Assembly (NCBI RefSeq): GCF_006912135.1
Contig: NZ_VIRS01000032.1
Coordinates: 1-64,000, forward strand
DNA length: 64,000 bases
Source: Cryptosporangium phraense
Lineage (GTDB): Bacteria > Actinomycetota > Actinomycetes > Mycobacteriales > Cryptosporangiaceae
Reading direction: 5' to 3'
The position numbers and the translations under genes are program-made. Position 1 is the first letter of the stretch. Every line of letters begins with the position of its first letter. A model generated the notes under the pieces. It worked only from the letters and a program-made list of their open reading frames with translations, was not told where the DNA came from and searched no databases. This document shows, piece by piece, positions 11,426 through 49,111 of the stretch.

Positions 11426-11432
11426 CCGGGCC

Positions 11433-12437: not shown

Positions 12438-12495
12438 TACGGTGCGTACCGCTCGCTAGAAACGGACAAAGCGGGCGGCGGAGACGGGGGCTGCG

Positions 12496-13395
12496 GTGGC
12501 AACGGGGCGGCGAACCCTCGCGGTACGGATCGGGAGCGGGCTGATGAGCGCCGCGGTCCTGGCCGGGCCTGCCCCGGCCAGCGCCGGGCCGGTCCCGGCC
12601 GTGGGGCGGCCCGCGACCCGGTGCGTGGTCGCGGATCAGCGGCTCGGGCAGATCAGCGGGCTGGTCGAGCGTCCGGGCGGGTTCTCGGTGCTGAACGACA
12701 CCGGACCGGTGCTCTGGCGGCTCGACGGCTCCTGCCGGGTGACCCACCGGACCGTGTTGCGTCCGCCGGCGGCCCACGACCCGGCCGCGGCCCCGCTGGG
12801 CGGGAAACGGTTCGACACCGAGGACCTCGCGGTCGACGCGTCCGGCGCGTTCTGGATCGCCGACATCGGCGGCAACACGACGCGGCGGACCGCGGTGTCG
12901 CTGTTCCGGTGGCGGCTCGGCACCCCGGCGACCGCGGTGACCCGCTACGACCTGAAGTACCCGGACGGCCCGCACGACGCCGAGGCGCTGCTGCTGAGCC
13001 GCCGGGGTCAGGTCGCGATCGTGACGAAGACCGTGGAGGCGCCCGGGGTCTACGTCGCGAACGCCCCGCTGGCGCCGGTCGGGTCGTTGCGCCTGGCCGG
13101 TCGGCTGCACATCCGGCGGTGGTGCCCGTCGTGCCGGTACCGCAGCCGGCTGGTGACCGGGGGAGCGGTCTCGGCCGACGGCAAGCGGGTTGTGCTGCGC
13201 ACCTACGACCGGGCGTTCGAGTGGAGCGCGCCGACCGGCGACGTGGTCGGGGCGATGCTGTCCGGCGCGCCCCGGCAGATCGCGCTGCCGGCCAGCCGTC
13301 AGGGTGAGGCGATCGCGTACACCTCGGACGCGAAGACGCTGCTCACCGCGACCGAACGGATACCGGCTCCGATCGCCGCGGTGCCGGTTCGCTGA
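12496..13395 (+). CDS. Secreted beta-propeller-like protein
   Basis: A 299-aa protein with an apparent signal peptide (Arg-rich start, hydrophobic core, ASA-GP cleavage near residue 30). The mature part has strand-rich segments such as FDTEDLAVDASGAFWIADIGGN, typical of phytase- or esterase-like secreted beta propellers. Four Cys residues could form disulfides. No catalytic site is recognisable. The start is GTG after a G-rich ribosome binding site. Its last 53 bases overlap the 3' end of the convergent hydroxylase gene. Function unknown. Confidence 0.7.
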   Translation: MATGRRTLAVRIGSGLMSAAVLAGPAPASAGPVPAVGRPATRCVVADQRLGQISGLVERPGGFSVLNDTGPVLWRLDGSCRVTHRTVLRPPAAHDPAAAPLGGKRFDTEDLAVDASGAFWIADIGGNTTRRTAVSLFRWRLGTPATAVTRYDLKYPDGPHDAEALLLSRRGQVAIVTKTVEAPGVYVANAPLAPVGSLRLAGRLHIRRWCPSCRYRSRLVTGGAVSADGKRVVLRTYDRAFEWSAPTGDVVGAMLSGAPRQIALPASRQGEAIAYTSDAKTLLTATERIPAPIAAVPVR

Positions 13396-14932
13396 GCGGG
13401 GCGCCGAACCAGGTCCGCAGAGCGGCCGACAGGCCCTCGGCCGGGTCGGGCTCGTCGCGGTCGGCGGCCCAGGCGACGACGCCGTCGGGGCGGACGAGCA
13501 GCCCGGCCAGACCGGGCCGATCGGTGCTGGTGGTGGTCACCAGCGTCACCCGGCCCGGGTAGCCGGCGGCCGCGGCCCGCACGGCCGGGTCGCCGGTCAG
13601 ATCCACCAGCACGCCGGTGCCGTCGACGCAGTGCTCGGCCAGCCGGGATCCGTCGGCCAGCGCCAGATCGGGCGCGATGAAGCCGATCAACGGGTGAGTG
13701 CCGGCCAGCGGGTACCGGATCGTGGCTCCGGAGAGCTGCTTGACCAGGTACGTCGTCCCGTCGGTGGTGTTCGCGAGGTCGGCGACCAGGTCGCGCAGCG
13801 CGTCGGCCCAGGGGTCCGAGCGCATGATCCCGATCTGGGCCCGGGTCCAGGCGAGGACGCGGGCGCCGACCGGGTGACGCTCGGCCGTGTAGGTGTCGAG
13901 CAGGCCGTCGGGCGCCCACCCGCGGACGACCGCGGCGAGCTTCCAGCCCAGGTTGACCGCGTCGCCGATGCCGAGGTTGAGGCCCTGGCCGCCGAACGGC
14001 GAGTGGACGTGGGCGGCGTCGCCGGCGAGCAGAACACGGCCGCGCCGGTAGTCGGTGGCCTGGCGGGCGTTGTCGGTGAACCGGGTGATGCTCGACATCC
14101 CGGTGACCGTGACGTCGACGCCGGTGACCCGCCGGATCGCGCCCTGGAGTTCGTCGGGGGTGACCGGGGTGTCCCGGTCGGCCGGGGAGCCGCTGAACTC
14201 GACGACGAGGATCCGGCCCGGCATCGGCCCGAACGCGTAGACGCCCCGGGCCGACCGGTTCCAGCCGGGTCGCAGCCCCTCGGTGCCGGTCATCTCGGCG
14301 ACCGCCTGCCAGGCGGTGATCTGCGGGGGCGTGCCCGGGAAGTCGAAGCCGGCGTTCTTGCGGATCTCCGACCGGCCGCCGTCGCACCCGACCAGCCAGC
14401 CGGCGCGCAGCCGCTCGTCGGAGGCCGAGATCGTGACTCCGTCGGCGTCCGGCTCGAAGGCCGTGACCGGCGTGGAACGGCGGATCTCGACGCCGAGGGA
14501 CGTCGCCCGGGCGGTGAGGAGGGCCTCGAGTTCCTGCTGGGGGACAAGCCCGACGTCGGCCGCCGGGCCGTGCCCGGCGAACGCGGGGTCGGACTCGTCG
14601 AGCAGGGTGCCGTCGAGCATCAGCGCGCCGAAATGGCCGAGGAACTTCGGCGGTGGCGTGCGCGGGCCGGCCGCCGGGCCGGTGCGGGTGGCCAGGAACG
14701 CCCGGAACTGGGCCAGCGCGCGCTCCTGGGCCGCGACCAGGTCGGGGAGGAGACCGCGGCGGTCGAGCGCGGCCGCGGTCGGGAGCGTGATCGAGCCGGC
14801 CTTGGTCGTGAGGTCGGGCTCGGCGAGGCGGTCGAGGACGAGGACGTCGACGCCGGCCAGGCGTAACTCGCAGGCCAGCATCAGCCCGGTCGGTCCGGCT
14901 CCGACGACGACGACATCGTGGTTGGAAGTCAT
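13343..14932 (-). CDS. FAD-dependent aromatic hydroxylase-like monooxygenase
   Basis: A 529-aa class A flavoprotein monooxygenase of the PheA/TfdB/RdmE type, using NAD(P)H and O2 to hydroxylate an aromatic or polyketide substrate. Motifs: VVVGAGPTGLMLACEL (dinucleotide fold, about 7-22), the DG motif LVGCDGGRSEIRK (near 182-194), and the GD motif LLAGDAAHVHSPFGGQG (D305). A thioredoxin-like C-terminal domain (about 400-529) is typical of the family. The gene is divergent from a TetR regulator across 53 bases, a classic pairing for an inducible detoxifying or catabolic enzyme. The natural substrate is not deducible. Confidence 0.9.
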   Translation of the reverse strand: MTSNHDVVVVGAGPTGLMLACELRLAGVDVLVLDRLAEPDLTTKAGSITLPTAAALDRRGLLPDLVAAQERALAQFRAFLATRTGPAAGPRTPPPKFLGHFGALMLDGTLLDESDPAFAGHGPAADVGLVPQQELEALLTARATSLGVEIRRSTPVTAFEPDADGVTISASDERLRAGWLVGCDGGRSEIRKNAGFDFPGTPPQITAWQAVAEMTGTEGLRPGWNRSARGVYAFGPMPGRILVVEFSGSPADRDTPVTPDELQGAIRRVTGVDVTVTGMSSITRFTDNARQATDYRRGRVLLAGDAAHVHSPFGGQGLNLGIGDAVNLGWKLAAVVRGWAPDGLLDTYTAERHPVGARVLAWTRAQIGIMRSDPWADALRDLVADLANTTDGTTYLVKQLSGATIRYPLAGTHPLIGFIAPDLALADGSRLAEHCVDGTGVLVDLTGDPAVRAAAAGYPGRVTLVTTTSTDRPGLAGLLVRPDGVVAWAADRDEPDPAEGLSAALRTWFGAPLSEPAPRRSEPVSVRSR

Positions 14933-14941
14933 TGGACCAGA

Positions 14942-14977
14942 ATATGTACCGAGTCAAAGTTTTGGCCAGGTATATGA
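14942..14977. promoter_or_regulatory. Possible TetR operator between hydroxylase and tetR
   Basis: Within the 53-base divergent intergenic region, ATGTACC (14944-14950) and GGTATAT (14969-14975) form an imperfect inverted repeat with one mismatch and an 18-base spacer. A TetR dimer bound here could block both genes. The arms are short, so this is tentative. Confidence 0.35.
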
Positions 14978-14985
14978 TCGAAGAC

Positions 14986-15606
14986 ATGGGCCTGCGGGAT
15001 CGGAAGAAGCTCGAGACGCGGCAGCGGATCTCGGACGAGGCCACGCTGCTGTTCGTGACGCGGGGGTTCGACGCGGTGACGGTCGCGGAGATCGCCGAGG
15101 CGGCGAACGTCTCCAAGATGACGGTCTTCAACTACTTCCCGCGCAAGGAAGACATGTTCTTCGACCGGCTGCCCGAGGCCCGGGATCTGCTGCTCACGGC
15201 GATCGACGGCCGGGCCGACGGCGTGTCGCCGGTCGGGGCGATCCGGGAGCTGGCCCTCGACCTGCTGCAGCAGGACCATCCGCTCGGGGGCGCGGGAGAT
15301 CACCGGCAGTTCTGGCGGACGATCCTGGCGTCGCCGACGCTGCGCGCGCGGATGCGCGAGTCGGTGGAGGAGCTGGAGGATCTGCTGACGTCCGTGCTGC
15401 TGACGGCCGCGCCGGAGAGCGGGCCGACCCGGGCGCGATGGTCCGCGGCGCTGATCATGGCCGCGCTCCGGACGACCCGCCAGGTCGCGGCGCAGCGCAT
15501 CCTGGCCGGTGAGGATCCGGAGCTCGTGACCGCGGAGCAGCCGGCCCTGGTGAACGAGCTGTTCGACGGCGTCGAGCGAGCGCTCGACGCCGTCGGGGCC
15601 GGCTAG
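14986..15606 (+). CDS. TetR-family transcriptional regulator
   Basis: A 206-aa repressor with an N-terminal HTH (about 20-60; EIAEAANVSKMTVFNYFPRK) and a helical ligand-binding C-terminal domain. The ATG giving MGLRDRKK fits family length; frames reaching further upstream would overlap the divergent hydroxylase promoter. It likely controls the neighbouring FAD monooxygenase. Its TAG stop overlaps the stop of the convergent Spo0M-like gene within a single CTAG. Confidence 0.9.
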   Translation: MGLRDRKKLETRQRISDEATLLFVTRGFDAVTVAEIAEAANVSKMTVFNYFPRKEDMFFDRLPEARDLLLTAIDGRADGVSPVGAIRELALDLLQQDHPLGGAGDHRQFWRTILASPTLRARMRESVEELEDLLTSVLLTAAPESGPTRARWSAALIMAALRTTRQVAAQRILAGEDPELVTAEQPALVNELFDGVERALDAVGAG

Positions 15607-34189: not shown

Positions 34190-34640
34190 CAGCGGCCCGC
34201 GCCGCGCCGCTACGGCGGCCCGCGCCGCGCCGCCACGGCGGCCACAGCCACGCCGCCTCACCGCGGCCCGAGCGACCCCGCCGAACGGCGCCCCGGGCCG
34301 CGCCCCCGAGCGGCACCCGGCCACGGCAACGGCCACGGCCGGCCACGGCCCGGCCCGGCCAGGGCCCGGCCAGGGCAACGGCCACGCCCCGGCAACGGCC
34401 ACGCCCCGGCCACGGCCGCGGCAACGACCACGGTCCGGTGCCGGCCACGGTCCGGTGCCGGCCACGGTCCGGTGCCGGCCACGGCCCGGCAACGGCCACG
34501 CCCCGGCCACGGCAACGGCCACGCCCCGGCCACGGCCGCGGCAACGGCCACGGCCCGGTCCCGGCCACGGCCCGGTCCCGGCCACGGCCCGGCCCCGGCC
34601 CGGCCACGGCCCGGCCACGGCCCGGTCCCGGCCACAGCAA
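34190..34640. repeat. GC-rich minisatellite (CCGGCCACGGCCCGG type)
   Basis: About 450 bases of degenerate tandem repeats built from CGGCCACGGCCCGGT and CGGCAACGGCCACGCC. A 17-base unit (CGGTCCGGTGCCGGCCA) is present three times without change at 34431-34481. All six frames are open over long stretches only because of the composition. It separates the 78-aa gene from rpmJ. No gene is supportable here. Confidence 0.8.
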
Positions 34641-34683
34641 CGGCAACGACGCCCGCCCCACCCACCTCGGAATGCCCGCGTAC

Positions 34684-34935: not shown

Positions 34936-36159
34936 GTGGACCCGGATGACCTGACGCTCGAGAGCGCCGCCCAAGACCTCGCGATCGTGGCCGTCTACCG
35001 GCAGATGTTCGCGGTCCTCGGCAGCTCGGCGCAGTCGGTGATCAGCGACCCGATGCTGGTCGACCTGGCCGACGCGCTGTTCGCCGCCTTCTCCGCCGCG
35101 GGCAGCGAGGGCCTCACGATGGAGCAGATGCGGTCGGCCTGCCGCGGCTTCCCGGAGCCGGTCTTCACCTCGCGGGTGCGCGTCCTGCGCGAGCTCGGCG
35201 CCGTACAAAAGGCCTTCGACCGGCCCAACCAGGACGTGTACCGCGCGTCGTTCACCAGCTACGTGTCGCTGCTGTTCGTCCGCCGGATGCTGACCCGCGG
35301 CGGTCAGCTCGAACTGCACCGCATGCTGTCGCTGGAACGGCTGAACCTCGACGACCCGGCCGCGACCGAGGACGACGCCCGCGAGAGCGCGTCCCGGCTG
35401 ACGACCGCGTTCCGGCTGATCGTCACCGAGCTGTTCATGCTGACGTCCGGCGGCACGATCGACTCGCTGCGCGAGAAGGCGCCGTTGCTCTGGAACGCCG
35501 ACTCGCTGATCGGCGAGGCGGCCGCGGCCCACGACCGGATGCTGTCGCGCTGGCCGGAGCTGACCCGGCCGAGCACCGACCTCCGGGCCGCGATCGCCGC
35601 GTACCGCGACGTCTCGACCGCCGCGGCCGGTCGGCTCACCCAGGCGGTCGGGGCCACCCGGGCGCTGGACCTGCTGCCGGCCGAGGCCTGGCGCACGTTC
35701 ACCCGCCGCTCGTCCGTCGGCGCGCTGGCCGCACCTCTCGCCGGGCTGATCTTCGACGCGCCGCGGGCCTGGCTGTCGGCCGGCGACCTGACCGAGGCGG
35801 TCGCCCAGGCCGAGCGGCCTGCGCCGCAACGGCTCCGGCCTCCCCGGGCCGATTCCGACGACCTGGCCGACGCCACTCCGGCCGACGTCGCCCCGGCCGA
35901 CGATCGGGAGGCCGACGATCTGGCCGCCCGGGCCGAAGCCGTGCTGGCCGGGCGGGACGCTGTCGACATGGCCGACCTGATCGGACGGTCGGGTGACTGG
36001 CCGACCGCTCGCCGGACGCTCTCCGACCTCGTCGCGGCGGCCCAGCACCCGTCGCTGCCGTACGACCTGACCTGGGGTGACGGGCTCGTCGTGGGCGCCG
36101 ACGGGGTGCCGTCGTGGCGCGGGCAGGGCCGGTTCGTGCGGGTTGCGGTTCCGGCGTGA
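34936..36159 (+). CDS. SMC operon gene 1: kleisin-like winged-helix/helical protein
   Basis: A 407-aa soluble protein. Residues about 30-110 look like a winged helix (LTMEQMRSACRGFPEPVFTS, then VLRELGAVQKAF), followed by a long helical region to about 300, an acidic linker (ADSDDLADATPADVAPADD) and a small C-terminal strand-rich domain (about 355-407). This order of wHTH, helical middle and small C-terminal domain resembles MksF/JetA-type kleisins. It is the first of four genes joined by GTGA/ATGA overlaps and ending with an SMC-like ATPase; a bridging role between ATPase heads is inferred from context. I cannot assign it to a named family from sequence alone. Confidence 0.65.
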   Translation: MDPDDLTLESAAQDLAIVAVYRQMFAVLGSSAQSVISDPMLVDLADALFAAFSAAGSEGLTMEQMRSACRGFPEPVFTSRVRVLRELGAVQKAFDRPNQDVYRASFTSYVSLLFVRRMLTRGGQLELHRMLSLERLNLDDPAATEDDARESASRLTTAFRLIVTELFMLTSGGTIDSLREKAPLLWNADSLIGEAAAAHDRMLSRWPELTRPSTDLRAAIAAYRDVSTAAAGRLTQAVGATRALDLLPAEAWRTFTRRSSVGALAAPLAGLIFDAPRAWLSAGDLTEAVAQAERPAPQRLRPPRADSDDLADATPADVAPADDREADDLAARAEAVLAGRDAVDMADLIGRSGDWPTARRTLSDLVAAAQHPSLPYDLTWGDGLVVGADGVPSWRGQGRFVRVAVPA

Positions 36160-36851
36160 GCGGGCTCGACGAGGCCGCGCTGTGGGCGGCGCGGGCCCGG
36201 GCCGAGGGGCCGCTGTCGGTGCCGGTCGGGGTCTCCGGTCCGGACGGGTTCGTCCGGCTGCCGTCGGGGGAGGAGCCGAGCGCCTGGTGGGTGCCGGTCG
36301 GGCCGGACGGCGTGACGCCGGCCGCGCTGCGTGATCTGCGGCTGAGCCTGCCGGCTCCGGACCACCGCAACGAGGCCGCCCGCGTCCTCGCCGTGTGTCT
36401 GCGCTGTTGCTGGGTGGAGCTGGCGGCCGATCCTTGGCCGGGGCGGGAGACGTCGGTGCCCGCGGTGCTGAGCGTTCTCGGTGACCTGCTGCCGACGCGG
36501 TCGGCCCAGACGCACCACCGGTTCGCGGCCGAGGCGTTCCGGCAGCTGTCGGACGCCGGCTGGATCCGCTGGTCGGAGCGGGGTGGGACGATCCGGCTCG
36601 GTCCGCGGGTGGCGAGCTGGCCGTCGGCCGAGGTCGAGATCGTCCGAGAGCTCTGCCGCTCCCTCCCGGCCCCGGCCGACGTCGAGGCCGCGCCCCCGCC
36701 GGAGGCCGCGCCCCAGACGGAGGCCGCGCGCCCGGCTGAGCCCCCGGCGGAGGCCGCGCCTCCGGCGGAGGCCGCGCGCCCGGCTGAGCCCCCGGCGGAG
36801 GCCGCGCCCCCGGCCGAGGCCGCACTCGGCGCGGACGGGGGTGCGGCATGA
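36156..36851 (+). CDS. SMC operon gene 2: small winged-helix protein with Pro/Glu/Ala tail
   Basis: A 231-aa protein whose GTG overlaps the previous stop (GTGA). Residues about 70-165 look like a winged helix (TRSAQTHHRFAAEAFRQL, then DAGWIRWSERGGTIRL), fitting a MukE/MksE/KITE-type subunit. The last 50 residues are a repeated Pro/Glu/Ala tail. Two adjacent cysteines occur at about 90 (LRCCW). A role as accessory subunit of the downstream ATPase is inferred from the operon. Confidence 0.6.
   Translation: MSGLDEAALWAARARAEGPLSVPVGVSGPDGFVRLPSGEEPSAWWVPVGPDGVTPAALRDLRLSLPAPDHRNEAARVLAVCLRCCWVELAADPWPGRETSVPAVLSVLGDLLPTRSAQTHHRFAAEAFRQLSDAGWIRWSERGGTIRLGPRVASWPSAEVEIVRELCRSLPAPADVEAAPPPEAAPQTEAARPAEPPAEAAPPAEAARPAEPPAEAAPPAEAALGADGGAA
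36721..36816. repeat. 48-base tandem duplication in SMC operon gene 2
   Basis: Positions 36721-36768 and 36769-36816 are near-identical and in frame, each encoding a 16-residue Pro/Glu/Ala unit (EAARPAEPPAEAAPPA). It lengthens the C-terminal linker without breaking the frame. Confidence 0.8.
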
Positions 36852-37480
36852 CGCATCCGGCCGAGGATCTCCTCGGGGCGTTGTCCGAGCGGCAGCGGGA
36901 CGAGGTCGTCGCGGCCTGGGCCGCGGTCGAGTACGGGCGCGAGCCGGTCGACGAGGTGGGCTTCGCCGCACTCCGCGACCCCGCGCTGCGCGAGACCCTC
37001 CGCGCCGTGCTCCGGCGCACCGGCCGCGACCTCGTCCGCATCGCCGGCCGCCGGTGGACCAGCGGCTACGACGACGACGTCCGGGCCGAGCTCGTCGCCC
37101 GCGGCTGGGGCCTGCTCCCCGAGTACGACCGGGCCGTGCTGACGACGATCCTCGTGCACTCGGTGGCCATCCCCCGCTCCGACGGTCACCTCACCGACGA
37201 CAGCTGGGCCTCGGCCGTGCCGACGACCGTCGCCGAGCTGCGCAGCCACACCCAGCTGGCCCGCGGCAAACTCAACGACGCGCTCCAGCGGCTGCGCAGC
37301 GCCGACCTGATCCGGGCCGCGCGGACCTCGTCCGAGGGCGCGTCCTACGTCCCGGGCCCGCAGTTCCACCGGCTCACCCCGGCGGCGCGGCGCCTGCTGC
37401 AAGAAGAACTGGTACTGGCCGCCGGCCCGGGCTCACCCCTGGCCGCGGCGATTCGGCATTCCCGGGGAGGACAGCAGTGA
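36848..37480 (+). CDS. SMC operon gene 3: second small winged-helix protein
   Basis: A 210-aa protein starting at an ATGA overlap with gene 2. Residues about 95-190 look like a winged helix: VPTTVAELRSHTQLARGKL, then RLRSADLIRAAR and a wing. It differs clearly from gene 2 in sequence. Two distinct small winged-helix partners beside an SMC-like ATPase would fit a heterodimer like Nse1-Nse3 rather than the MukE or ScpB homodimer; that is inference. No enzymatic motif is visible. Confidence 0.6.
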   Translation: MTHPAEDLLGALSERQRDEVVAAWAAVEYGREPVDEVGFAALRDPALRETLRAVLRRTGRDLVRIAGRRWTSGYDDDVRAELVARGWGLLPEYDRAVLTTILVHSVAIPRSDGHLTDDSWASAVPTTVAELRSHTQLARGKLNDALQRLRSADLIRAARTSSEGASYVPGPQFHRLTPAARRLLQEELVLAAGPGSPLAAAIRHSRGGQQ

Positions 37481-40400
37481 CGCGGCCGGTCGATCATCTG
37501 GACGTCGTGGGGGACCGGGTCGCGATCGGCATCCAGCTGATCGGGATCTCCCGGCTCTCGACGCACCCCGTGCCGCTGGTGCCCGGCTGCCTGATCACGG
37601 TCGCCGGTCAGGGCCCGAAGGACTCCAACGGCGCCGGGAAGTCGTCGTTCATCGCCGCGCTGACCCTGCTGCACGGCGACGAGCAGTGGCGCCTCGCGTC
37701 GGGCGCCCGGGAGTCCGCCGACCTGCTGTTCTCGGCCGAGATCGCGGCCCAGGACCGCGAGTACGCCAGCGCCGACCACGGCTACGTCGTCGGAGTGTTC
37801 GCCGACGCCGACGCGGAGCACCCGGCGGACAGCGCGCTCACCGTCTGGCTGCGCATCGACCGGGAAACGCCGCACCTCCTCGTCCGCTGGACCGAAGGGC
37901 TGCACGTTCCCACCGCGTCCACCGAAGCGGAACGGGAACGTCAGGCCGACGGACTGTGGGCGGCGCTGCCGCCCCGCGCCGGACGGCGCGACTACAACGC
38001 ACGGGATCTGTCCCGGGTCCTGTTCGGCGAGCACATCCGGTGCGTGTCGTTCCTCTCGACGTCGGTGCGCCCGTCGGCGACGGCGAACCTGCTCGCGCAA
38101 CCGCTGAACGAGCTCAAGCCCGACCGGATCTTCTCGGCCGTGGCCGCGCTGACCGGCCTCGACCACGAGATCGCGGACGAGCAGCGGCACCGGAACACCG
38201 AACACGCGGAGCTGGAGAAGGCGGCCGACGCCGAGCGGAAGCTGCTCGAGTGGGAGGAGCAGGCGTCCGCGATCGAGTCCGGCATCGAGCGGCGCGAGCA
38301 AGCCCGCGACCGGGAGGCCGACGCCCGCGGGCGGTGGCGGTCCCGGGCCGCGGTGCTGGTCGCCCGGGCCTCCGACGAGCTCGAGGCGATCGACGACGAC
38401 CTCGGACGGATCGCCGCCGACGACGCCGCCCACCAGGAGCGGCTCGCGTCGATCGCCGACGAGCTGCACGTGCTCGGCGACGACGTGGCGCTCCGCGACC
38501 GGCTGCGCCGGGCCGAGGCCGCGTTCGCGTCGCTGGACGGTGATCACCAGCAGCTGCGCGACCGTCGCCGGGGGCTGACCGCGTCGTTGGACCGGCTCGG
38601 CCGGGAAGCCGACGAGTTGGACGCCACGGCGCGCGACGCCGACGGGCGGTCCGCGGACGTGGCCGCCTCCGAGCTCGAGGTGGCGGTGGACGCCCGGACG
38701 GCGGCGATCGGGGCGCGGGCGATCGCATCCCAGGCGGTCGCGTCGGCGTCGGCGGCGGTGCGGGTGGCGGAGGCCGGCGACGACGTCGCGACGGCTCAGC
38801 TGTCGGCGTTGCGGGAGGCGGGGATTCCGGCGGTCGCGCTGGTGGACGCGGTGACGTTGACCGAGGAACAGCGTCCGGTCTGGGAACCGCTGCTCTGGCC
38901 GTTCCGCGAGGCGGTCGTCGTCGACGCGTCGCAAGTAGACCGGGCAACCGGGGAGCTGGCCGCCGTACCGGGGTCGATGCTGGTCGCGGCGGCGGGCGCG
39001 GCCGGGAGCGCCGCAGATGGGTTGCCGGCCGTGGCCGGCGCGTTCGATCTCGCGGGCTTCCTCGGCGCGCTGCGCGCCGGTGCCGTCGTCGACGGCGCGG
39101 CCGTCACCGTCGCGGGCGCCACCGTCATCGGCGGGTTCGACGCACCGATCACCGGGCGCGCGGCCCGGATCGACCGCGCCCGAACCGCCCTGACCACCGC
39201 CTCCACCGCACTCGACGTCGCCGCCGACCGCCTCACCGACGCCGACCGGGCCGTCGCGATCGCCGAGCGCCGCCTCACCGCGGCGCGGGCCGCGGTGACC
39301 GCGGAATCCAAGCGTCACCGGATCCAGAGCGCGCGCCGCGAGCTCGACGAGGTCGCCGAGCGCGAGGACGCGCTCGCGCCGCGGCTGTCGGCCGCCCGCC
39401 ACGAGTACGACCTGGCCCGCCTGGCCGAGACCGGCCGCCAGCAGCAGGCCGACGCGCTGCACGGCAACCGCCGCCGGGTCGAGGACGCCCGTGAGGTGCT
39501 GCGCGTCGAGCGCGACCGCCTCGACACCCGCCGCCGCGTCATCGACCTCGACACGCTGCTCCGGGCCTGGGGAAACACGATCGACGCGGCCCACGACCAC
39601 CTCGCCGACCTCCCCGACGACGAGCAGCTCTTCGACGAGGACGACTGGTGGCGCGCCGCCGAGGCCGTGCTGGCCGAGATGCTCGCGCTCTGCTTCCGGC
39701 CCGATGACCCGGTCCCGGCCCAGGTCGAGGCCCTCGCCGACGAGCGCGCGACCCCCGGCCGCGGCCAGGCCGACAAGCAGAAGCAGACGTTCCCGGCGCT
39801 CCTGGACGCGGTCCGCGACCACCTGACCCTCACCGCCCACGAGGACGCCCACCAGCGCGCGCGCCTCAGCGACGAGCGGGTCGAGAAGCGCCGGGCCCGG
39901 GACGCGGCCGCGATCGGCCACGAGGAGGCGGCGAAGGCGGCGGCGGCCGTGCGGGCGTCGCTGGCCCGGGCGATCACCGCCCGGCTGAACGCGGTCGGGT
40001 CCAAGTTCGACGATCTCGACCGCGCGTACGGCGGCTACGGCGCCGGCCTGCGCTTCACCGAGCCCGAGCCGCCCGCCGACCCGACCAAGCGCTGGAACTG
40101 GGAGGTCACCCCGGTCTGGCGCCGGGCCGAGGGCAACGCGCTGGTCGCTTACGACCGACGCGGCAACACCGCCCAGATGGACGAGAAGGCGGTGAAGCTC
40201 GTCTGCGCGGCCGCGCTGGCCTCGGGCACCGGGCGTCCGCTGCTGCTGGTGCTCGACGAGCTCGGCCGCAACCTCGGCAAGCAGCACCGTCGCGAGGCCG
40301 TGGCTCTGTTCGAGCGGATCGGCGCCGACAGCGGCATCACGGTCGTCGGCGCGCTGCAGGACGACATGGAGCGCTACGCGATCGACGCCTGCGGCGAGTA

Positions 40401-40530
40401 CGTGAAGCTGCGCCGGACGTCGGACACGATGGCGTACAACCAGGCGCCGGTGATCCACGGGTTCGACACCCGCGCGGGCCGGGTGGCGCTGCTGTCCGAG
40501 TGGCTGTCCGGGAGCTATCTGCCGGTGTAA
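37477..40530 (+). CDS. SMC operon gene 4: SMC/MukB-like coiled-coil ATPase
   Basis: A 1017-aa ATPase starting at a GTGA overlap. The N-terminal head has the P-loop SNGAGKSS (K55, S56) with Asp where the first Gly is usual. Coiled coil runs from about 235 to 440, then a compact Gly/Ala-rich hinge-like domain (about 449-565, opening with LREAGIPAVALVDAV), a returning coil (about 565-730), and the C-terminal head (from about 835) with Walker B LLLVLDEL (D927, E928) and a likely signature segment MDEKAVKLVCAAAL. Such proteins (MukB, MksB, JetC) extrude DNA loops; JetC acts in plasmid defence. The next gene is an unrelated peptidase, so no JetD nuclease is present. Confidence 0.82.
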   Translation: MTRPVDHLDVVGDRVAIGIQLIGISRLSTHPVPLVPGCLITVAGQGPKDSNGAGKSSFIAALTLLHGDEQWRLASGARESADLLFSAEIAAQDREYASADHGYVVGVFADADAEHPADSALTVWLRIDRETPHLLVRWTEGLHVPTASTEAERERQADGLWAALPPRAGRRDYNARDLSRVLFGEHIRCVSFLSTSVRPSATANLLAQPLNELKPDRIFSAVAALTGLDHEIADEQRHRNTEHAELEKAADAERKLLEWEEQASAIESGIERREQARDREADARGRWRSRAAVLVARASDELEAIDDDLGRIAADDAAHQERLASIADELHVLGDDVALRDRLRRAEAAFASLDGDHQQLRDRRRGLTASLDRLGREADELDATARDADGRSADVAASELEVAVDARTAAIGARAIASQAVASASAAVRVAEAGDDVATAQLSALREAGIPAVALVDAVTLTEEQRPVWEPLLWPFREAVVVDASQVDRATGELAAVPGSMLVAAAGAAGSAADGLPAVAGAFDLAGFLGALRAGAVVDGAAVTVAGATVIGGFDAPITGRAARIDRARTALTTASTALDVAADRLTDADRAVAIAERRLTAARAAVTAESKRHRIQSARRELDEVAEREDALAPRLSAARHEYDLARLAETGRQQQADALHGNRRRVEDAREVLRVERDRLDTRRRVIDLDTLLRAWGNTIDAAHDHLADLPDDEQLFDEDDWWRAAEAVLAEMLALCFRPDDPVPAQVEALADERATPGRGQADKQKQTFPALLDAVRDHLTLTAHEDAHQRARLSDERVEKRRARDAAAIGHEEAAKAAAAVRASLARAITARLNAVGSKFDDLDRAYGGYGAGLRFTEPEPPADPTKRWNWEVTPVWRRAEGNALVAYDRRGNTAQMDEKAVKLVCAAALASGTGRPLLLVLDELGRNLGKQHRREAVALFERIGADSGITVVGALQDDMERYAIDACGEYVKLRRTSDTMAYNQAPVIHGFDTRAGRVALLSEWLSGSYLPV

Positions 40531-40536
40531 TACCGT
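40531..40536 (+). promoter_or_regulatory. Putative leaderless -10 box of M20 peptidase gene
   Basis: TACCGT lies directly after the ATPase stop and ends six bases before the peptidase ATG, the same spacing as at dop and the IclR gene. It suggests separate leaderless transcription of the peptidase. Confidence 0.4.
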
Positions 40537-40542
40537 GCGGGC

Positions 40543-41832
40543 ATGGTGCCCGAGCCGGTGGAGCTGTTGCGGCGGTTGATCCGGGTCGACACGACGAACC
40601 CGCCCGGCAACGAGTCCGCGCTGGTCGAGTACCTCGGCGGGCTCCTCCGCGACGGCGGGGTGACGACGACCGTCGTCGGCGAGAACCTCGTCGCCAGGGT
40701 GCCGGGCCGGGGCGAGGCCCCTCCGCTGCTGATGCAGGGTCACCTCGACGTCGTCCCGGTGAGCGACCACGGCTGGACGCACCCGCCGTTCTCCGGCGAC
40801 CTGATCGACGGGTTCGTCTGGGGCCGCGGCGCCCTGGACATGAAGAGCGGCGTCGTCATGATGCTGGTCGGTCTCCTGCGGATGCTGGACGCGGGCCGCA
40901 CCCCGCCCGGCGACGTCATCCTGGCGCTGCTGGCCGACGAGGAGGCCGGCGGCGAGCGGGGCGCGAAGTACCTGGTCGAGAACCGGCCCGAGCTGTTCGA
41001 GGGCGTGCGCTACGCGATCGGCGAGTTCGGCGGCTTCACGATGGAGATCGCCGGACGGCGGTTCTACCCGGTGCAGGTCGCCGAGAAGCAGATCTGCTGG
41101 GTGCGTGCGGTGTTGCGGGCTCCGGGTGGCCACGGGTCGCTGGCCCGGCCGGGCGGCGTGACGGCCCGGCTGGCCACCGTGCTGCGCACGCTCGACCGGC
41201 AGCACCTGCCGGTGCACGTCACGCCGGTCGTCCGGACGATGATCTCGGCGATGGCGGCGGAGTTGCCCGCTCCGGCCGCGCAGGCGGCCCGTCTGCTGCT
41301 GCGTCCCGCGCTGACCGACCGTCTGCTCGGCGCGGCCGGCGAGACCGGCCTCACGCTCGCGCCGCTGTTCCACCACACGGCCACGCCGAACATCGTGTCC
41401 GCCTCCGGCGGCGCGATCAACGTCCGGCCGACCGAGGCCGTCCTCGACCTCGACGGACGGTTGCTGCCGGGCTTCCGCCCGCAGGATTTCCTCGCTGAGC
41501 TCCACGCCTTCTTGGGGGACGATGTGGAGCTGAGCGTCGTGCGGCACGACCCGGTCGAGCTCGAGCCGAACCTCGGACTGTTCGACACGCTGGCATCCGT
41601 GCTGCGCGATCACGATCCGCTGGCCAAGCCGGTCCCGATGCTCATGCCGGCCTCCACCGACGGCCGGTTCTTCGCCCGGCTCGGCATCCAGACGTACGGG
41701 TTCACGCCGATGACGCTGCCCGCCTCGATGACGTTCACGAAGCTGGTGCACGGGGTGGACGAGCGGATCCCGGCGTCGGCGGTGGAGTTCGGCACGGCCT
41801 GTGTGACGTCGCTGCTGGAGCGTTTCCGCTAA
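40543..41832 (+). CDS. M20/M28-type zinc peptidase (ArgE/DapE/carboxypeptidase group)
   Basis: A 429-aa cytoplasmic metallohydrolase. Metal and catalytic motifs: GHLDVVPV (His and catalytic Asp, about 66-73), GRGALDMKSG (bridging Asp, about 95-104), and ADEEAGGERG (catalytic Glu-Glu, about 131-140). The dimerisation insert is present. The group cleaves acyl or peptidyl bonds of small substrates; CPG2/dipeptidase-like members are closest by look. It starts 12 bases after the SMC-like ATPase but probably has its own promoter. The 3' end overlaps the convergent membrane protein gene by four bases. Confidence 0.92.
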   Translation: MVPEPVELLRRLIRVDTTNPPGNESALVEYLGGLLRDGGVTTTVVGENLVARVPGRGEAPPLLMQGHLDVVPVSDHGWTHPPFSGDLIDGFVWGRGALDMKSGVVMMLVGLLRMLDAGRTPPGDVILALLADEEAGGERGAKYLVENRPELFEGVRYAIGEFGGFTMEIAGRRFYPVQVAEKQICWVRAVLRAPGGHGSLARPGGVTARLATVLRTLDRQHLPVHVTPVVRTMISAMAAELPAPAAQAARLLLRPALTDRLLGAAGETGLTLAPLFHHTATPNIVSASGGAINVRPTEAVLDLDGRLLPGFRPQDFLAELHAFLGDDVELSVVRHDPVELEPNLGLFDTLASVLRDHDPLAKPVPMLMPASTDGRFFARLGIQTYGFTPMTLPASMTFTKLVHGVDERIPASAVEFGTACVTSLLERFR

Positions 41833-44800
41833 CGCATCCCGCGGACGAACGACGTGAAGCGGGAGGCGTCGGACCGGCGTTGTTCGTAGGTGGCGCCGAC
41901 CACGACGAGCAGGAGCCCGGCGAGCGAGAGCGGCACCCAGGTCGGGACCGCGTCGGCGAGCGCAGGGAGGATCGGTGCGAGCGCGCGGGCCGCGACGAGC
42001 GTCAGGATCGACGCCCCGGCGACGAACGGAGCCTGCCGGCGGGCCGCCGCGCCCGCGAGCGTCGTCGCGAGCGCGGCGCAGCCGAGCAGCAGGAGGCGGA
42101 GCCCGAGGACGCCGTCGGACAGGGCGATCGCGCCGGTGGGGACCGCGGCGACGGCCAGCGCCGGGCCGAGCGCGACCCAGGACGAGACCGCCGGTCGGCG
42201 GCGGAGGAGGAAGAGTCCGAACGCGCCGGCCAGGACCGCGGCCGGGAGCGTGTAGGCCTCGGCGGCGGTGACGCCGGAGCGGGCCAGCCAGGCCCAGACC
42301 GCGAGCAGTTCGACGACGGGGATCGCGTAGAGGGCGGGTGCGGGCATGGCCCGGGGAACAGTGGGCCGGGCGGCGGATCGGAGGGCGGCGAGGCCGAGGG
42401 GGATCGCGAGGAGGGTGAGGGTCAGGGCGAGGATCGGCTGAGCATGAGCATCGCCGAACGCGTTCGGGCCGGCCGGGAACGAGCCGGCGGCCGGGCCGGC
42501 GAGGGCCTCGGCGGCCGCCGCGGTGAGGACGGCGAGCGCACCGGCGACGACGGCACCGACGTCGAGCGTCGCGGTGACCAACCGGGGAGCGGCGGTCAGG
42601 CCGGGGATGGTCGACGCGGTGGCGACCCCGAGAAGTAGATAGGCCGTGGGCACGCCCGAGGCAGCGCCGATCGCGACCGCGAGCGCGACGGCGGCAGTCG
42701 CCGAGGTAGCGGCGGCAACAAGTCGGGGGAGCGGAGCGGAGGCGAGAACGATCGCGGTGAGGGCAACGAGGAGCAAGGCCCCGAGCACGGCGAGCGTGGC
42801 CGCACGGTCCGCCAACGACCAGGCCACCGCCGTCGCCCCGGAAACGAACGCCACGACGGCCGGCGCGACCGCAGAGGCCGGCGCGACCGCAGAGGCCGGA
42901 GCGGCCGCGGAGGCACCGACGGTGGCGAGCACCAGCAGCACCCCGAGCGAGACCGGCCAGGGCGCATGCAGAGCAGGCCCGAACTCGGCGACCCCGAGCG
43001 CCGACGCCGGGACCGCATACCGCAGCGCCGCCCGGAGGGAGCCGTCCCACCGCACTCCGAAAGCCAGCACCCCGGCGGCCAGAGTCGCGATCGGCTCCAG
43101 CACCCCACCCGGAAACACCACCCAGGGCGCCAGGCGAGAGGCGTCGGCCGGAGCACCGTCCCAGACCGCGGCGACCCACCCGAACGGCGCGAACACGGTC
43201 GCCAGCGCCGCCGGAGCCAGCACCACGGCCGCGACGAGCAGCCCCGGCAGCCCGGCCGCGGTTCCGCTGACCGGGCCACGCGGCCCGGCGAGCCGGGTGG
43301 CGGCCACCGCGAGAACGGCGGCGCCCAGGGCGAGCAGGGCCAGCACGGGACGGTCGACGGTCAGCACACCGCGAATGGGGTCGACCGCCGTGAGCGCCGC
43401 CCCGCCGTACCCGGCCACGGCGGCGATCGTCGCCGCGACCGCCGCGGTCAGCGGCCGAGCCCGCCGAACCCCGGCCGCAACGGAGAGCGCCAGCAACCCG
43501 GCCAGCCCGAACCCAACCCCGGCCGGACCGCTCCCGCCCACCCATCCGGACCCACCGGATGTGAGCGCGGTCGCCACCGCCCCGGCCTCCCCAACGGCCG
43601 CCCCGAGCGCGATCCCGGCGAACACCGCCTGCCGCAGCCCGCCGACCGCCCGCCACGAGAGCACCCCACACCCGGCCGCGGCCACGCCGAGCACTCCCAG
43701 GGTCAACCCCCGGGAAGCCAGCGCCACCACCAGCGCATAGGCCCCCAGCCCCCCGCCGAGCCCGAACATCAGCACCCTCCCGACCGGCCCACCGACCCAA
43801 GCCCGCGCCCTCGACCCCAGGACAGTCGCGACTAGCGCAATCGCACCGGCGGTGACGACGACGACCCAGATCGGCGCCCCAGCCACGACCGGCCCGAGCA
43901 CCGCGACACCGCCCGCACCGACCGCGGCGAGCCCGAGCCCGAGCCCGAGCCCACGACCGAGGCGGTCGAACCCGCCGACGACCACCCCGAACGCGGCCAA
44001 TACCGCCACCAGCGCCACGACCGTCCCCCACCCGGGCCGCCCGGCATACCCCCACACGGCCCGGCCCGCCGAGGCGCCCCACATCAGGTCCGGATCCGTC
44101 AACGGCACGACCAGCGTGAACCCGACCGCCGCCCCCGGAATTACGCCGACGGCACTGGCCAGCGCCGCACCCACCGCGCCGGCCCCGGTCCGCCACGCTC
44201 CGCGAGCCCCGCGGGCCGCGACCGCGCACCCGAGCACCGCGACCGCGACCCCCGCCAGCCCCCACGCCTCCGGCCCGAACCGCACCCACCCCGACGCGAC
44301 CCCGGCCCACACCAGCAGCAAGGCCACCCCGCCCGCCACCGCCCGCGCGATCTTCACTCCGGCGTGCGCGGCGGTCCCGCCAGCCTCTGACCGCACCATC
44401 CCCGCGTTCAGCCACGCCGGCCCCGCGCCGGATTGCACCCGCCCGCCCGCCCGCGCTGCTCGCGCGCCGGATTCCGCGCCTGCGCCTGCCTGCGCCGGTT
44501 CTGTGCCTGCGCTTGCCTGCGCCGCTCCTGTGTCCGCGCTCGACCGCGTCGCCTCCGCGCCGGGCTGCGCCGCCCCCGCGCCCGGCTGCGCCTCCCCCGC
44601 GCCGGACTGCCCGCCCGTGCCGGGCTGAGCGCTCGCATCCGGCCTCACCACGCCCGGCTGCGTCGCCGCGCTCGATCGAACTGCCGGGCTCGGCTGCGCT
44701 GCCGCGCCCGGCTCCGCCGCCGGCCTCGGGGGCCCTGCCGTATCCCGTGCGGCCTCGGTCTGCCGCAGGCCCGCCACCAATTCAGCCGCCACCACCCCCG

Positions 44801-46040
44801 CCGCGGCCAACGCCACCAGCGACAGCTCCCCGAGAACCGTGTTCCCGACCCCGCCGGTCCACACCGCCACCAGCCCGCATCCCACTGCCGCCACCCATGC
44901 GACCCCACCGCACACCAAAGCCGCGATTCGCCCAGCCACCCCCGGCCCGGCTGCGACGCTCCCGGCCGCCCCGAGCCCGGCCGCCTCCCGCGCGGCCGCG
45001 AGTCGCCCCCACGCCAGCAGGCCCAAGTCCCCGGCCACCAGGAGAACCAAGACCCCGGCCCACTTCCCGGCGCTGTCCGCGTGAGGGACCGTCAGCAGCA
45101 CGGCGGACACGTGCACGAACACCACCCCGGCCGGCCTCAACGAGGCCACCGGGACCAAGAACGGATACCCGAGCGCGACCAGCGCCGTCACCCCGACCAC
45201 GATCCCGGCGTAGCTCGACGACCCGGGTACCAGACCGACGTGCCGCACCGCGTACCCGTCCAACAGCAGCAGCACCAGACCGAGCAGCGCGAGCGTCTCC
45301 GCGGTCGAGGCGAGACCGAACCGGCGGAGGACCGCGGGCGCCGCGAACACGCCGGCCGTGATCACCCCGAGGATCACCGCCCGCCCACCGATCCCGAACG
45401 CACCCCACGCGACCACGGTGAACACCACTGCGGCGACGGCCAGCAGCATCCCTCCGAGCCCGAGGAGCACGGCCTGCACCGACCGCGCCGAGGTCTCCGG
45501 CCGAGCCGACTCGCCCGCCACCGGCGCCCAGACCGGGGGAGCGGCCGGCCGGCCCGCTGCCCCGCTCGCCACCCGGCCCGCTGCCCCGCTCGCCACCCGG
45601 CCCGCCAGCCCGCCCGCAGCCCAGCGCGCCAACCCGCTCCCGGCCCAGTCCGCAGGCCCGCCTGCGGGCCGGTCCGCCAACCCGCCCCCGGCCCGGTGCG
45701 CCGGCCCTCCAGCAGCCCGACCCACCGGCCCGCTCGCGTCCCGCCCCGCTGACCCGCCCGCGCCCCGGCCCGTCAACCCGCTCGCCGCCCCGCCGGCCAA
45801 CCCACGAACCGACAGCAGCTGGGCTCGGTGCTCCGTCGCCCCCGACCAGGCCCGATACGCGTCCGCGGCCCAACGCTCGGCCGCCGCCTGCGCGGCCTGC
45901 GCCGCTGCCTGAGCAGCCCGCGCCTCGGCGTGCGCGGCCCGTGCCACCCGCACGCGCCCGTCGGCCTCGGCGAAATTCCGCGCGGCGGCCGCCAGCGCGG
46001 CCTCAGCGCGCGCCAGTTCGGTGTCGAAGCTGCTGGTCAT
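41829..46040 (-). CDS. Giant Ala-rich polytopic membrane protein
   Basis: A 1403-aa protein. Residues 1-70 are an Ala/Arg/Glu coiled coil (LARAEAALAAAARNFAEAD), 75-165 a repeat of GRxAxGPxxR-type units, then about thirty hydrophobic helices broken by a Pro/Ala/Gln/Glu-rich repeat (about 440-560, AQPGAGAAQ type). It resembles the large actinobacterial membrane proteins annotated with an SCO7613-type C-terminal domain; biochemical role unknown. No transport or enzyme motif is visible. ATG 46040 (MTSSFDTELARAE) was chosen because the coiled coil starts at once. Confidence 0.7.
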   Translation of the reverse strand: MTSSFDTELARAEAALAAAARNFAEADGRVRVARAAHAEARAAQAAAQAAQAAAERWAADAYRAWSGATEHRAQLLSVRGLAGGAASGLTGRGAGGSAGRDASGPVGRAAGGPAHRAGGGLADRPAGGPADWAGSGLARWAAGGLAGRVASGAAGRVASGAAGRPAAPPVWAPVAGESARPETSARSVQAVLLGLGGMLLAVAAVVFTVVAWGAFGIGGRAVILGVITAGVFAAPAVLRRFGLASTAETLALLGLVLLLLDGYAVRHVGLVPGSSSYAGIVVGVTALVALGYPFLVPVASLRPAGVVFVHVSAVLLTVPHADSAGKWAGVLVLLVAGDLGLLAWGRLAAAREAAGLGAAGSVAAGPGVAGRIAALVCGGVAWVAAVGCGLVAVWTGGVGNTVLGELSLVALAAAGVVAAELVAGLRQTEAARDTAGPPRPAAEPGAAAQPSPAVRSSAATQPGVVRPDASAQPGTGGQSGAGEAQPGAGAAQPGAEATRSSADTGAAQASAGTEPAQAGAGAESGARAARAGGRVQSGAGPAWLNAGMVRSEAGGTAAHAGVKIARAVAGGVALLLVWAGVASGWVRFGPEAWGLAGVAVAVLGCAVAARGARGAWRTGAGAVGAALASAVGVIPGAAVGFTLVVPLTDPDLMWGASAGRAVWGYAGRPGWGTVVALVAVLAAFGVVVGGFDRLGRGLGLGLGLAAVGAGGVAVLGPVVAGAPIWVVVVTAGAIALVATVLGSRARAWVGGPVGRVLMFGLGGGLGAYALVVALASRGLTLGVLGVAAAGCGVLSWRAVGGLRQAVFAGIALGAAVGEAGAVATALTSGGSGWVGGSGPAGVGFGLAGLLALSVAAGVRRARPLTAAVAATIAAVAGYGGAALTAVDPIRGVLTVDRPVLALLALGAAVLAVAATRLAGPRGPVSGTAAGLPGLLVAAVVLAPAALATVFAPFGWVAAVWDGAPADASRLAPWVVFPGGVLEPIATLAAGVLAFGVRWDGSLRAALRYAVPASALGVAEFGPALHAPWPVSLGVLLVLATVGASAAAPASAVAPASAVAPAVVAFVSGATAVAWSLADRAATLAVLGALLLVALTAIVLASAPLPRLVAAATSATAAVALAVAIGAASGVPTAYLLLGVATASTIPGLTAAPRLVTATLDVGAVVAGALAVLTAAAAEALAGPAAGSFPAGPNAFGDAHAQPILALTLTLLAIPLGLAALRSAARPTVPRAMPAPALYAIPVVELLAVWAWLARSGVTAAEAYTLPAAVLAGAFGLFLLRRRPAVSSWVALGPALAVAAVPTGAIALSDGVLGLRLLLLGCAALATTLAGAAARRQAPFVAGASILTLVAARALAPILPALADAVPTWVPLSLAGLLLVVVGATYEQRRSDASRFTSFVRGMR

Positions 46041-46097
46041 GCGCGTCACGATCGCGCAGAACACGACGGCGGACGCGGTCCGATCAGCCCAGGCCCG

Positions 46098-48111: not shown

Positions 48112-49111
48112 TCACGCGGCCAGGTGCCAGAGCCGCACGGTCTTGTCGACGCTGCTCGTGGCCAGGAGGTCGTCGGCCGGGCCGAACACCGCGGTGAAGA
48201 CCCCGCCCGAATGCCCGGCCAGCGGTTCGCCGAGCGCCCGGCCGCGGGCCGGATCCCAGAACCGCACGGTCTTGTCGCGCCCGGCGCTGGCCACGACCGA
48301 GCCGTCGGGGCTGAACGACGCCCGGTACTCCCCGTGCGGGTGACCGCTGAGCGGACGGTGCTGCCCGGTGGCGAGAGTCCAGATCCGTAGCGTGGTGTCC
48401 CGGCTGTCGTCGCCGGTGGAGACGAGGAGCTTGCCGTCCGGGCTGAACGCCACCGACGACACCGGGCCGGTGTGGCCGGTGAGTGGGTGACCCACCGGCC
48501 GTCCGGTGGCCGTGCTCCAGAGCCGGACGGTCCGGTCCCGGCTCGCGGACGCGAGCAGCGTCCCGTCCGGATGGAACGCGACGGAGACCACCGCGTCGGT
48601 GCAGCCGACCAGCGGGTGGCCGACCGGGTGACCGGTCTCGGCGTCCGAGAGGCGGGCCGTCCCGTCCCGGCCGGCGGACGCGACGAGCGTGCCGTCGGGG
48701 CTGAACGCGACGGCGGCCACCGACGCGGTGTGGCCGGTGAACGGGACGCCGATCGGGTGACCGGTGGCGGTGTCCCACAGGCGCACGGTGCGGTCCCGGC
48801 TGCAGCTGACCAGGGTCCGTCCGTCCGGGCTGAACGCCACCGCGGGCACCGGGCCGGTGTGGCCGGTCAGCGGGACGCCGATGGGGCGGCCGGTAGCGAC
48901 CTCCCAGAGCCGGATCGCCTCGTCGTGGCTGCCGCTGGCCAGTGTCGCGCCGTCGGCGCTGAAGGTCAGCGCCTCGTCGAGTACCCACTCCGACTCCGCG
49001 GCGGCCGGCGTGAGGACGACGACGAGGGCGTGCGGCCGCCAGGAACTCGGCGAGCCGCTGGACGTACGGGCGGTCGCTGCGGCTGTAGCTGATGAACACC
49101 GGCCCGGCCAC
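48112..49111 (-). pseudogene. Broken TIR-WD40 protein gene (deletion plus frameshift)
   Basis: GTG 49111 opens a TIR domain (VFISYSRSDRPYVQRLAEFL), but after about 26 residues the frame must shift by one at about 49025-49035 to continue as ALVVVLTPAAAESEWVLDEA, the later part of the same domain. Roughly 40 residues that normally lie between these TIR segments are missing. From there the frame runs unbroken through seven WD40 blades (each with VAFSPDG and DRTVRLW patterns) to the stop. TIR domains can be NADases or adaptor modules, and WD40 propellers sense partners; this copy should be inactive unless the WD40 part is expressed from an internal start such as GTG 48849. Confidence 0.72.

Follow-up and report, generated by a model that had tools for sequence, protein, structure and literature searches.

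A candidate two-KITE SMC complex of the Wadjet/Mks kind in Cryptosporangium phraense and other actinobacteria

Results

Four overlapping genes encode a putative SMC complex

We analysed 64,000 nucleotides of DNA from Cryptosporangium phraense (positions 1 to 64,000 of contig NZ_VIRS01000032.1, assembly GCF_006912135.1, forward strand; hereafter, the window), which contain a block of four overlapping genes for a putative complex built around an ATPase of the SMC (structural maintenance of chromosomes) type. The original prediction, made from the sequence alone, described genes of 407, 231, 210 and 1017 amino acids joined by GTGA, ATGA and GTGA overlaps, and our analysis confirmed both the genes and their junctions. 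Throughout, Wadjet denotes the JetABCD system, also named EptABCD or MksBEFG, and KITE stands for kleisin-interacting tandem winged-helix element. The features of the block are the following:

34936..36159, + strand: gene 1, 407 amino acids, kleisin-like, JetA-related (by profile comparison with JetA)
36156..36159, + strand: GTGA stop/start overlap of genes 1 and 2 (read from the sequence)
36156..36851, + strand: gene 2, 231 amino acids, KITE-type subunit (about residues 1-170) with a proline/alanine-rich tail (predicted fold)
36848..36851, + strand: ATGA stop/start overlap of genes 2 and 3 (read from the sequence)
36848..37480, + strand: gene 3, 210 amino acids, a second, different KITE-type subunit with a tandem winged helix (predicted fold)
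37477..37480, + strand: GTGA stop/start overlap of genes 3 and 4 (read from the sequence)
37477..40530, + strand: gene 4, 1017 amino acids, SMC-type coiled-coil ATPase (motifs and head profiles)
37612..37647, + strand: Walker A motif (P-loop) of gene 4, GPKDSNGAGKSS, residues 46-57
40165..40200, + strand: signature-like stretch of gene 4, NTAQMDEKAVKL, residues 897-908, which we read as aligned with the signature region of JetC
40240..40263, + strand: Walker B motif of gene 4, LLLVLDEL, residues 922-929
40531..40542, + strand: 12-base gap, the site at which some relatives carry a fifth gene (gene 5; Toprim or kinase)

The window has a high G+C content. Its list of open reading frames includes longer forms of gene 2 (245 amino acids, from 36114) and gene 4 (1349 amino acids, from 36481), because in-frame starts exist upstream; the shorter starts were preferred because they match the tight junctions found in the relatives.

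None of the products of genes 1 to 4 reached the curated cut-off of any Pfam or NCBIfam model. The best weak family matches were to nSTAND1 for gene 1, to winged-helix families for gene 3 and, for gene 4, to SMC_N, an archaeal SMC-related protein and the PADLOC models mad3 and JetC3, the last of these falling in the coiled coil (E 2.5e-4). Two distant blocks described below likewise gave nothing over the cut-off, with weak matches in Pfam and PADLOC only, and sequence and profile searches of PDB chains retrieved coiled-coil, winged-helix or chance-level matches only. The block, which the original prediction had called divergent, indeed gave nothing above the weak level for the modelled Wadjet and Mks families in Pfam, NCBIfam or PADLOC.

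Gene 1 resembles JetA, and gene 4 carries the motifs of an SMC-type ATPase

We gathered JetA and JetB proteins by family search and compared them as profiles (hhalign) with the block proteins, gene 1 being represented by a profile of 43 sequences. Gene 1 aligned collinearly with the pooled profile of JetA types I and II over residues 17-402, with a score of 42.0 (49.6% probability, E 1.7e-4). As a yardstick, the same pooled profile scored 42.4 (43.1%) against type III JetA, and 23 unrelated neighbour families scored at most 23.3 against gene 1. The earlier description of gene 1 as kleisin-like is thereby borne out, and the comparison shows, at the level of sequence profiles, a JetA-like kleisin that is as close to pooled JetA I and II as type III JetA is. 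We read its layout as an N-terminal part with a weak winged-helix signal, a helical middle, a proline/alanine-rich linker and a conserved C-terminal part.

The SMC-type ATPase proposed for gene 4, with a P-loop and the motif LLLVLDEL, is present and conserved: the key residues of both motifs are kept in at least 90% of an alignment of 41 rows, and the signature-like stretch and the Walker B acidic pair are also conserved among relatives. Profiles of its N- and C-terminal head regions, from which one and two rows without a recognised motif had been dropped, respectively, matched a pooled profile of JetC heads, built from 11 sequences, with probabilities of 54.8% and 53.6%, in a comparison that included no unrelated controls; the JetC types gave 13 to 99% among themselves.

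Genes 2 and 3 are predicted to be two different KITE proteins

The AlphaFold2 model of gene 2 had a mean predicted local distance difference test (pLDDT) value of 77.8, with blocks of 88-95 over residues 71-170. It consists of an N-terminal part with one helix and three strands, a clear winged helix (71-169) and a low-confidence tail. In a Foldseek search of the PDB, the first seven matches were all chains of MukE, MukEF, MukBEF or Wadjet JetABC entries. The top rows of a second structure comparison were chain A of an Nse1-Nse3-Nse4 entry, with Z 8.9 over 138 residues, and, with Z 8.7 over 152 residues, a JetABC chain; from chain and length these are probably Nse1 and JetB. The matches to KITE entries cover nearly the whole model.

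For gene 3, the model (mean pLDDT 84.2) has what we read from its secondary structure as a tandem winged helix, made of two helix-helix-helix-hairpin units. The four Foldseek matches with E≤0.001 were all ScpB, and the second comparison retrieved the same chain A of the Nse1-Nse3-Nse4 entry (Z 9.1, 160 residues) as well as ScpB (Z 8.7, 146 residues). Gene 3 had no SMC_ScpB match in Pfam at E≤1, and in this genome the SMC_ScpB gene lies on a different contig (C53). A single reading frame of 436 residues covers genes 2 and 3 in Nonomuraea, which supports that their products work together.

The predicted folds thus suggest that genes 2 and 3 encode two different KITE proteins, gene 2 being nearest, weakly, to MukE and Wadjet proteins and gene 3 to ScpB, and the two probably form a heterodimer on the kleisin. 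The original prediction of two distinct winged-helix partners is upheld in this form, and the Nse1/Nse3-like pairing that it proposed is plausible, given the Nonomuraea fusion and the match of both genes to one chain of the Nse1-Nse3-Nse4 entry.

Some local peculiarities were seen in these genes. The tail of gene 2, poorly conserved in relatives, contains 48-base repeats (2.8 copies, 92% match; window 36684-36823). In one congener (G438; genomes and loci are cited by our own G and L labels), gene 2 matches twice, over residues 1-38 and 2-231, at sites about 640 bases apart (L066 11353-12870), reflecting either a partial duplication or an insertion. Two Kribbella genomes have a minus-strand gene between genes 3 and 4 (L022 8070-10010 and L031 7905-9975), whose product we take to resemble a pectate lyase.

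The block is conserved, although sparsely distributed, in actinobacteria

A pattern scan with gene 4, limited in its reach to close relatives, was run over the genomes of bacterial and archaeal species and retrieved 41 related loci, every one labelled as actinobacterial. The order 1-2-3-4 on a single strand is kept in 40 of them, and therefore the block is not a chance arrangement; the remaining locus, L032, is a contig of 3,967 bases with only the end of gene 4. Junctions could be scored in 39 loci, leaving out L032 and the frame-shifted draft L023: the gap between genes 1 and 2 was -4 to +1 and that between genes 2 and 3 was -8 to -1 in all 39, and the gap between genes 3 and 4 was -4 or -8 in 31, exact values leaning towards overlap in that starts overlapping the previous stop were favoured where present. 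L023 was considered as a fusion of genes 1-3 and rejected, its frames shifting within genes 1 and 2.

In comparisons with two congeners, the ratio of nonsynonymous to synonymous substitution rates (dN/dS) was 0.41-0.43 for gene 2 and lay at 0.13-0.20 for the other three genes. Gene 4 was found in 8 of 150 relatives, and the block in all four sampled genomes of the genus. Gene 3 occurred in 9 of 200 genomes of the order, eight of these being the eight genomes with gene 4; the ninth match (G554, 21 bits) is probably due to chance. A sample of the phylum yielded four gene 4 matches in 396 genomes, three of them true and one (L047) rejected as a chance coiled-coil match. Two distant blocks, with 35% and 26% identity in gene 4, seem to retain the four-gene plan; their genes 3 and 4 were matched by sequence, as was gene 2 in one of the two. 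Gene 1 of either block, and gene 2 of L072, were assigned from position and size only. No phage in the collection searched matched gene 4, and the plasmid collection gave a single record, a chromosome-sized Nonomuraea 'plasmid', with 70% of gene 4 covered.

In a tree of gene 4, built by a quick method and with its long branches flagged, 22 Kribbella-clade rows (one labelled Streptomyces), 9 Jiangella-clade rows and the 4 rows of the genus itself form clades without a strong gene 5. These clades, together with the 5S rRNA genes beside Kribbella-clade copies in 4 of 8 loci searched, favour vertical inheritance of the block. Canonical ScpB is encoded in all 21 block genomes tested (of 49), indicating that the basic condensin has not been replaced.

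The row labelled Streptomyces sp. SID13031 (L017) sits within Kribbella and shares Kribbella neighbours, and is probably mislabelled. Most of the Kribbella loci lie only a few kb from the end of a contig. A location at chromosome ends or telomeres was considered for them and rejected given the nearby 5S rRNA genes; assembly breaks at rRNA are a simpler account, because a 5S rRNA gene lies near that end in four of the eight loci searched in this clade.

Some relatives carry a fifth gene with a Toprim or a kinase domain

In 5 of the 41 block loci, gene 4 is followed by a gene 5 that begins inside its end, with a 4-base overlap; in one sample, 12 of 15 cases had an overlap of 4 or 8 bases. An N-terminal domain of some 130 residues is common to all five proteins. 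Three of them (L001, L009 and L036), of about 420 residues, have a Toprim-like C-terminal half, with PADLOC JetD matches in all three and with JetD_C or DUF2399 just over the cut-off in L001 and L036 and below it in L009. The other two (L011 and L026; about 460 residues) have instead a C-terminal Ser/Thr kinase (Pkinase, E 6.2e-27 and 2.5e-27), nearest to the PADLOC PD-T4-6 kinases; the kinase version was found in five loci overall. Further linked Toprim genes occur in G559 and in the distant G151.

These observations were extended in a sample of 390 genomes of the family of Amycolatopsis (G396), 20 of which had a gene 4 match. From this sample 20 loci were scanned, among them L001, L009 and L011 again; two further match pieces, L168 and L170, were set aside. 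Gene 5 was of the Toprim type in ten of the 20 loci, a kinase in four, truncated in one and a remnant in one; three had no gene 5 within the 1.5 kb examined, and one had a JetD2-type gene. Gene 3 was detected in 17 of these loci, and the three without it are partial. The divergent loci L158-L162 matched JetD_C with 47-57 bits (cut-off, 22). The Toprim residues E288, D335 and D337 are retained in 14 of 14 aligned Toprim genes, and the motifs HRDIKPAN and VADWG in all five kinases.

Comparison of these proteins revealed a change in relatedness at about residue 120. The kinase protein from L152 and the Toprim protein from L001 are 84% identical before this residue and 28% after it, whereas L152 and L154, both kinases, are 46% identical before and 88% after. 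Because identities flip at this point, one N-terminal domain bears different effectors, and near-identical kinases occur on different N-termini, a pattern that we read from the sequences as repeated recombination at one joint. No copy of the N-terminal domain was found in the viral contigs or plasmids searched.

The genome of C. phraense has the block but no detectable effector

The original prediction supposed a system without a nuclease, or with an unlinked one. The first of these is not borne out for the family as a whole, since some relatives have a JetD-like Toprim gene directly after gene 4. An unlinked gene does occur in Kineosporia, where the Toprim gene 5 (L136; G397:C11:104779-106080) is on a different contig from the four-gene block and no match to genes 1-4 was found in the 3.4 kb around it; none was found in the genome of C. 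phraense. In the latter, searches with JetD_C, the gene 5 N-terminal domain and full-length gene 5 gave no match, and the reported absence of JetD holds as far as these searches go.

The three congeners had no match to the N-terminal domain or to full-length gene 5 either, and Kribbella and Jiangella had no strong gene 5 match. Among the 49 block genomes, the gene 5 match was strong in 8 (6 Toprim and 2 kinase), weak and partial in 2, one of them a Kribbella, and absent in 39; the N-terminal domain by itself adds a weak match in a second Kribbella genome. The weak matches (G411, G444 and G430, 22-24 bits; G411 and G430 are Kribbella) were not counted.

Ten neighbours of the block were checked in Kribbella and Jiangella, with no nuclease or kinase among them; they comprise regulators, glycosidases, a dehydrogenase, a subtilase, an aldo/keto reductase, a SpoU methylase and a protein just over the cut-off for Imm52. 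A 216-residue family (c2; e.g. L034 17955-18602) lies near the block in 21 Kribbella-type loci, and one of its members is just over the Imm52 cut-off.

A distant row of the gene 4 tree, L070, has a Toprim gene; in L072, which is more distant still, no gene 5 was seen and a transposase-like frame lies downstream. The effector-bearing state looks old, because the distant branches L070 and L156-L162 carry a Toprim effector, and loss of gene 5 seems likelier than late gain.

Other features around the loci

After the block, the window contains an M20-family peptidase gene (40543-41832), which also follows the block in all three congeners; we do not count it as part of the SMC system despite this position. 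In G438 its matches are broken and partial (L066 7144-7631), compared with full-length matches in the other two congeners. Just upstream of the operon, positions 34192-34648 hold dense short tandem repeats of the CGGCCA type. On the minus strand, positions 41829-46064 form an open frame of 1411 codons with many short repeats and no Pfam match at E≤0.01, partly similar in two congeners, within which the AT skew reaches 0.567 at 42-44 kb. WD40 repeats and 129-base tandem DNA repeats coincide at 48112-48963, where the listed frame may be a partial gene.

Elsewhere in this genome, G000:C11:99085-99606 (L088) has a partial match of 71 bits, below the cut-off, to TIGR02677, a model that we take to be type III JetA, and is perhaps a Wadjet III remnant. 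After the most distant block, L072, come frames that we read as transposase-like and a gene of 1039 codons whose end we read as histidine-kinase-like (10831-12045 and 12155-15274).

Discussion

The block is like Wadjet in having genes of kleisin, predicted KITE and SMC type in the same order, in a gene 1 as near to pooled JetA I and II as type III JetA is, and in the JetD-like Toprim gene of some relatives. It differs in having two KITE genes, as judged from predicted folds, instead of one, in that no family model reaches the cut-off for genes 1-4, and in that JetD is not in this operon or genome, with a kinase in its place in some relatives. Because the single-KITE plan and the linked JetD are not found here, we have not filed the block as a member of Wadjet. 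A literature search, mostly without subscription papers and preprints and thus weak evidence, found no Wadjet with two KITEs or with a kinase effector.

According to PMC10586767 and PMC10512200, the KITE of Wadjet is JetB, that of MukBEF is a dimeric MukE, and Smc5/6 has Nse1 together with Nse3. The block would share with Smc5/6 (Nse1-Nse3-Nse4) the combination of two different KITE subunits and one kleisin, by predicted folds only; unlike Smc5/6, it is bacterial and has one SMC gene in the block, for which a homodimer is expected although an unlinked second SMC partner is conceivable, and the likeness is one of fold. With MukBEF and MksBEF it shares the kleisin-KITE-SMC plan without a nuclease, as well as the fold of gene 2, nearest to MukE and Wadjet entries, but it has a second KITE gene and belongs to other sequence families. 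Gene 3 is nearest in fold to ScpB, as in Smc-ScpAB, although the 21 block genomes tested have a separate gene for canonical ScpB.

We think it quite probable that the block encodes a KITE-type SMC complex of the Wadjet/Mks kind, with two KITE subunits and exchangeable effectors, present here in an effector-less, vertically kept form. Two copies of gene 4 would provide a pair of ATPase heads, coiled coils and a hinge; the gene 1 kleisin would bridge this dimer and carry the gene 2 and gene 3 KITEs, probably as a heterodimer, and the complex should entrap DNA and translocate or extrude loops through ATP hydrolysis. In Wadjet, according to PMC10586767 and PMC10512200, JetABC acts as a sensor or motor on DNA, and JetD is held inactive until JetABC acts on the target. 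By analogy, the complex of genes 1-4 should grip DNA through its heads and KITE pair and turn the state of this DNA into a conformational signal, which the N-terminal domain of gene 5 probably receives by docking on the complex, and the C-terminal domain would act as the effector, by DNA cutting (Toprim, in more relatives) or protein phosphorylation (kinase, in fewer). Only the sensor/motor half was found here, probably kept as an effector-less machine for DNA organisation or sensing, whose role may lie in organising or policing the chromosome, or in impeding plasmids that it does not cut.

Several results weigh against this interpretation, starting with the subunits. Against single JetA types, gene 1 scored 20.4 (I), 31.5 (II) and 18.4 (III), and its signal thus comes from type II and the pooled profile, because types I and III alone score low. 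The gene 4 heads gave 0.2-21.4% against single JetC types, and the pooled comparison was the one made without unrelated controls. The folds of genes 2 and 3 come from single-chain models with low template modelling scores (TM-scores; in the rows quoted, no higher than 0.38 when normalised by query length), and their profiles had no significant similarity to JetB or to each other. For gene 2, the best Foldseek E value was 0.032, with none ≤0.001, the first non-KITE row was HlyU (MarR/ArsR-type, E 0.11), and single winged-helix chains (66-92 aligned residues) tied in Z. For gene 3, single-domain MarR-type chains scored as high as KITE chains (best Z 9.5), and its profile scored 31.3 and 26.6 against two regulator families of the neighbourhood, compared with at most 23.7 against JetB. 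These last results for gene 3 are what would be expected if genes 2 and 3 encoded winged-helix DNA-binding regulators and the complex consisted of the kleisin and the ATPase only; yet the near-full-length structural matches of both genes are mostly KITE entries, gene 3 has a tandem winged helix, gene 4 occurs in eight genomes that are all among the nine with gene 3, and genes 2 and 3 are fused in Nonomuraea, and we regard the regulator explanation as highly improbable.

Other points concern the effector. The JetD_C search missed the real gene 5 proteins of L009 and L036, and our searches would miss an effector in this genome that has diverged strongly. Of 42 block genomes searched with JetD_C, 7 had a match, and five of these belong to the Kribbella and Jiangella clades; a nuclease of another system could therefore serve there. 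The matching genes may also be part of ordinary Wadjet systems, which one survey placed in 42% of Actinobacteria (PMC10482375). Moreover, the Toprim label was not significantly clustered on the gene 4 tree (140 of 500 shuffles were as low). An active, Wadjet-like anti-plasmid defence in C. phraense through an unlinked or very divergent effector would agree with the linked JetD-like or kinase genes of relatives and with the separate contig of the Kineosporia Toprim gene. We nevertheless consider it unlikely, in view of the negative searches for JetD_C, the N-terminal domain and full-length gene 5 in this genome, and for the latter two in three congeners, and of the ten neighbours checked in Kribbella and Jiangella, none of which is a nuclease or kinase. 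Conversely, the occurrence of the block in all four sampled genomes of the genus and in clades of Kribbella and Jiangella, the purifying selection evident from dN/dS, its housekeeping-like neighbours and the canonical ScpB of 21 of 21 tested block genomes, to which it would be an addition, fit a second condensin for chromosome organisation that was never tied to defence. This we also doubt, as Toprim effectors occur on distant branches (L070 and L156-L162) and the block is sparse in the phylum, with 3 true matches in 396 genomes. The likelihoods that we assign to these alternatives overlap with that of the effector-less KITE-type complex, a reading that commits to no single function.

In a more specific form, which we put forward tentatively and would stop just short of calling probable, the family would be a fourth kind of Wadjet-like machine, in which an SMC homodimer and an obligate KITE heterodimer read the shape or size of DNA and a docking domain connects them to an exchangeable Toprim or kinase effector; the effector would have been lost in several lineages, including this one, and the sensor retained as a resident machine of the chromosome.

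A bacterial complex with two KITEs, if true, would be a simple model for how a KITE pair turns asymmetric. The exchange of a JetD-like nuclease and a kinase on one N-terminal domain would demonstrate that the sensing by an SMC complex can be coupled to more than one output, and the effector-less, vertically kept copies would make the conversion between defence and chromosome SMC complexes directly testable.

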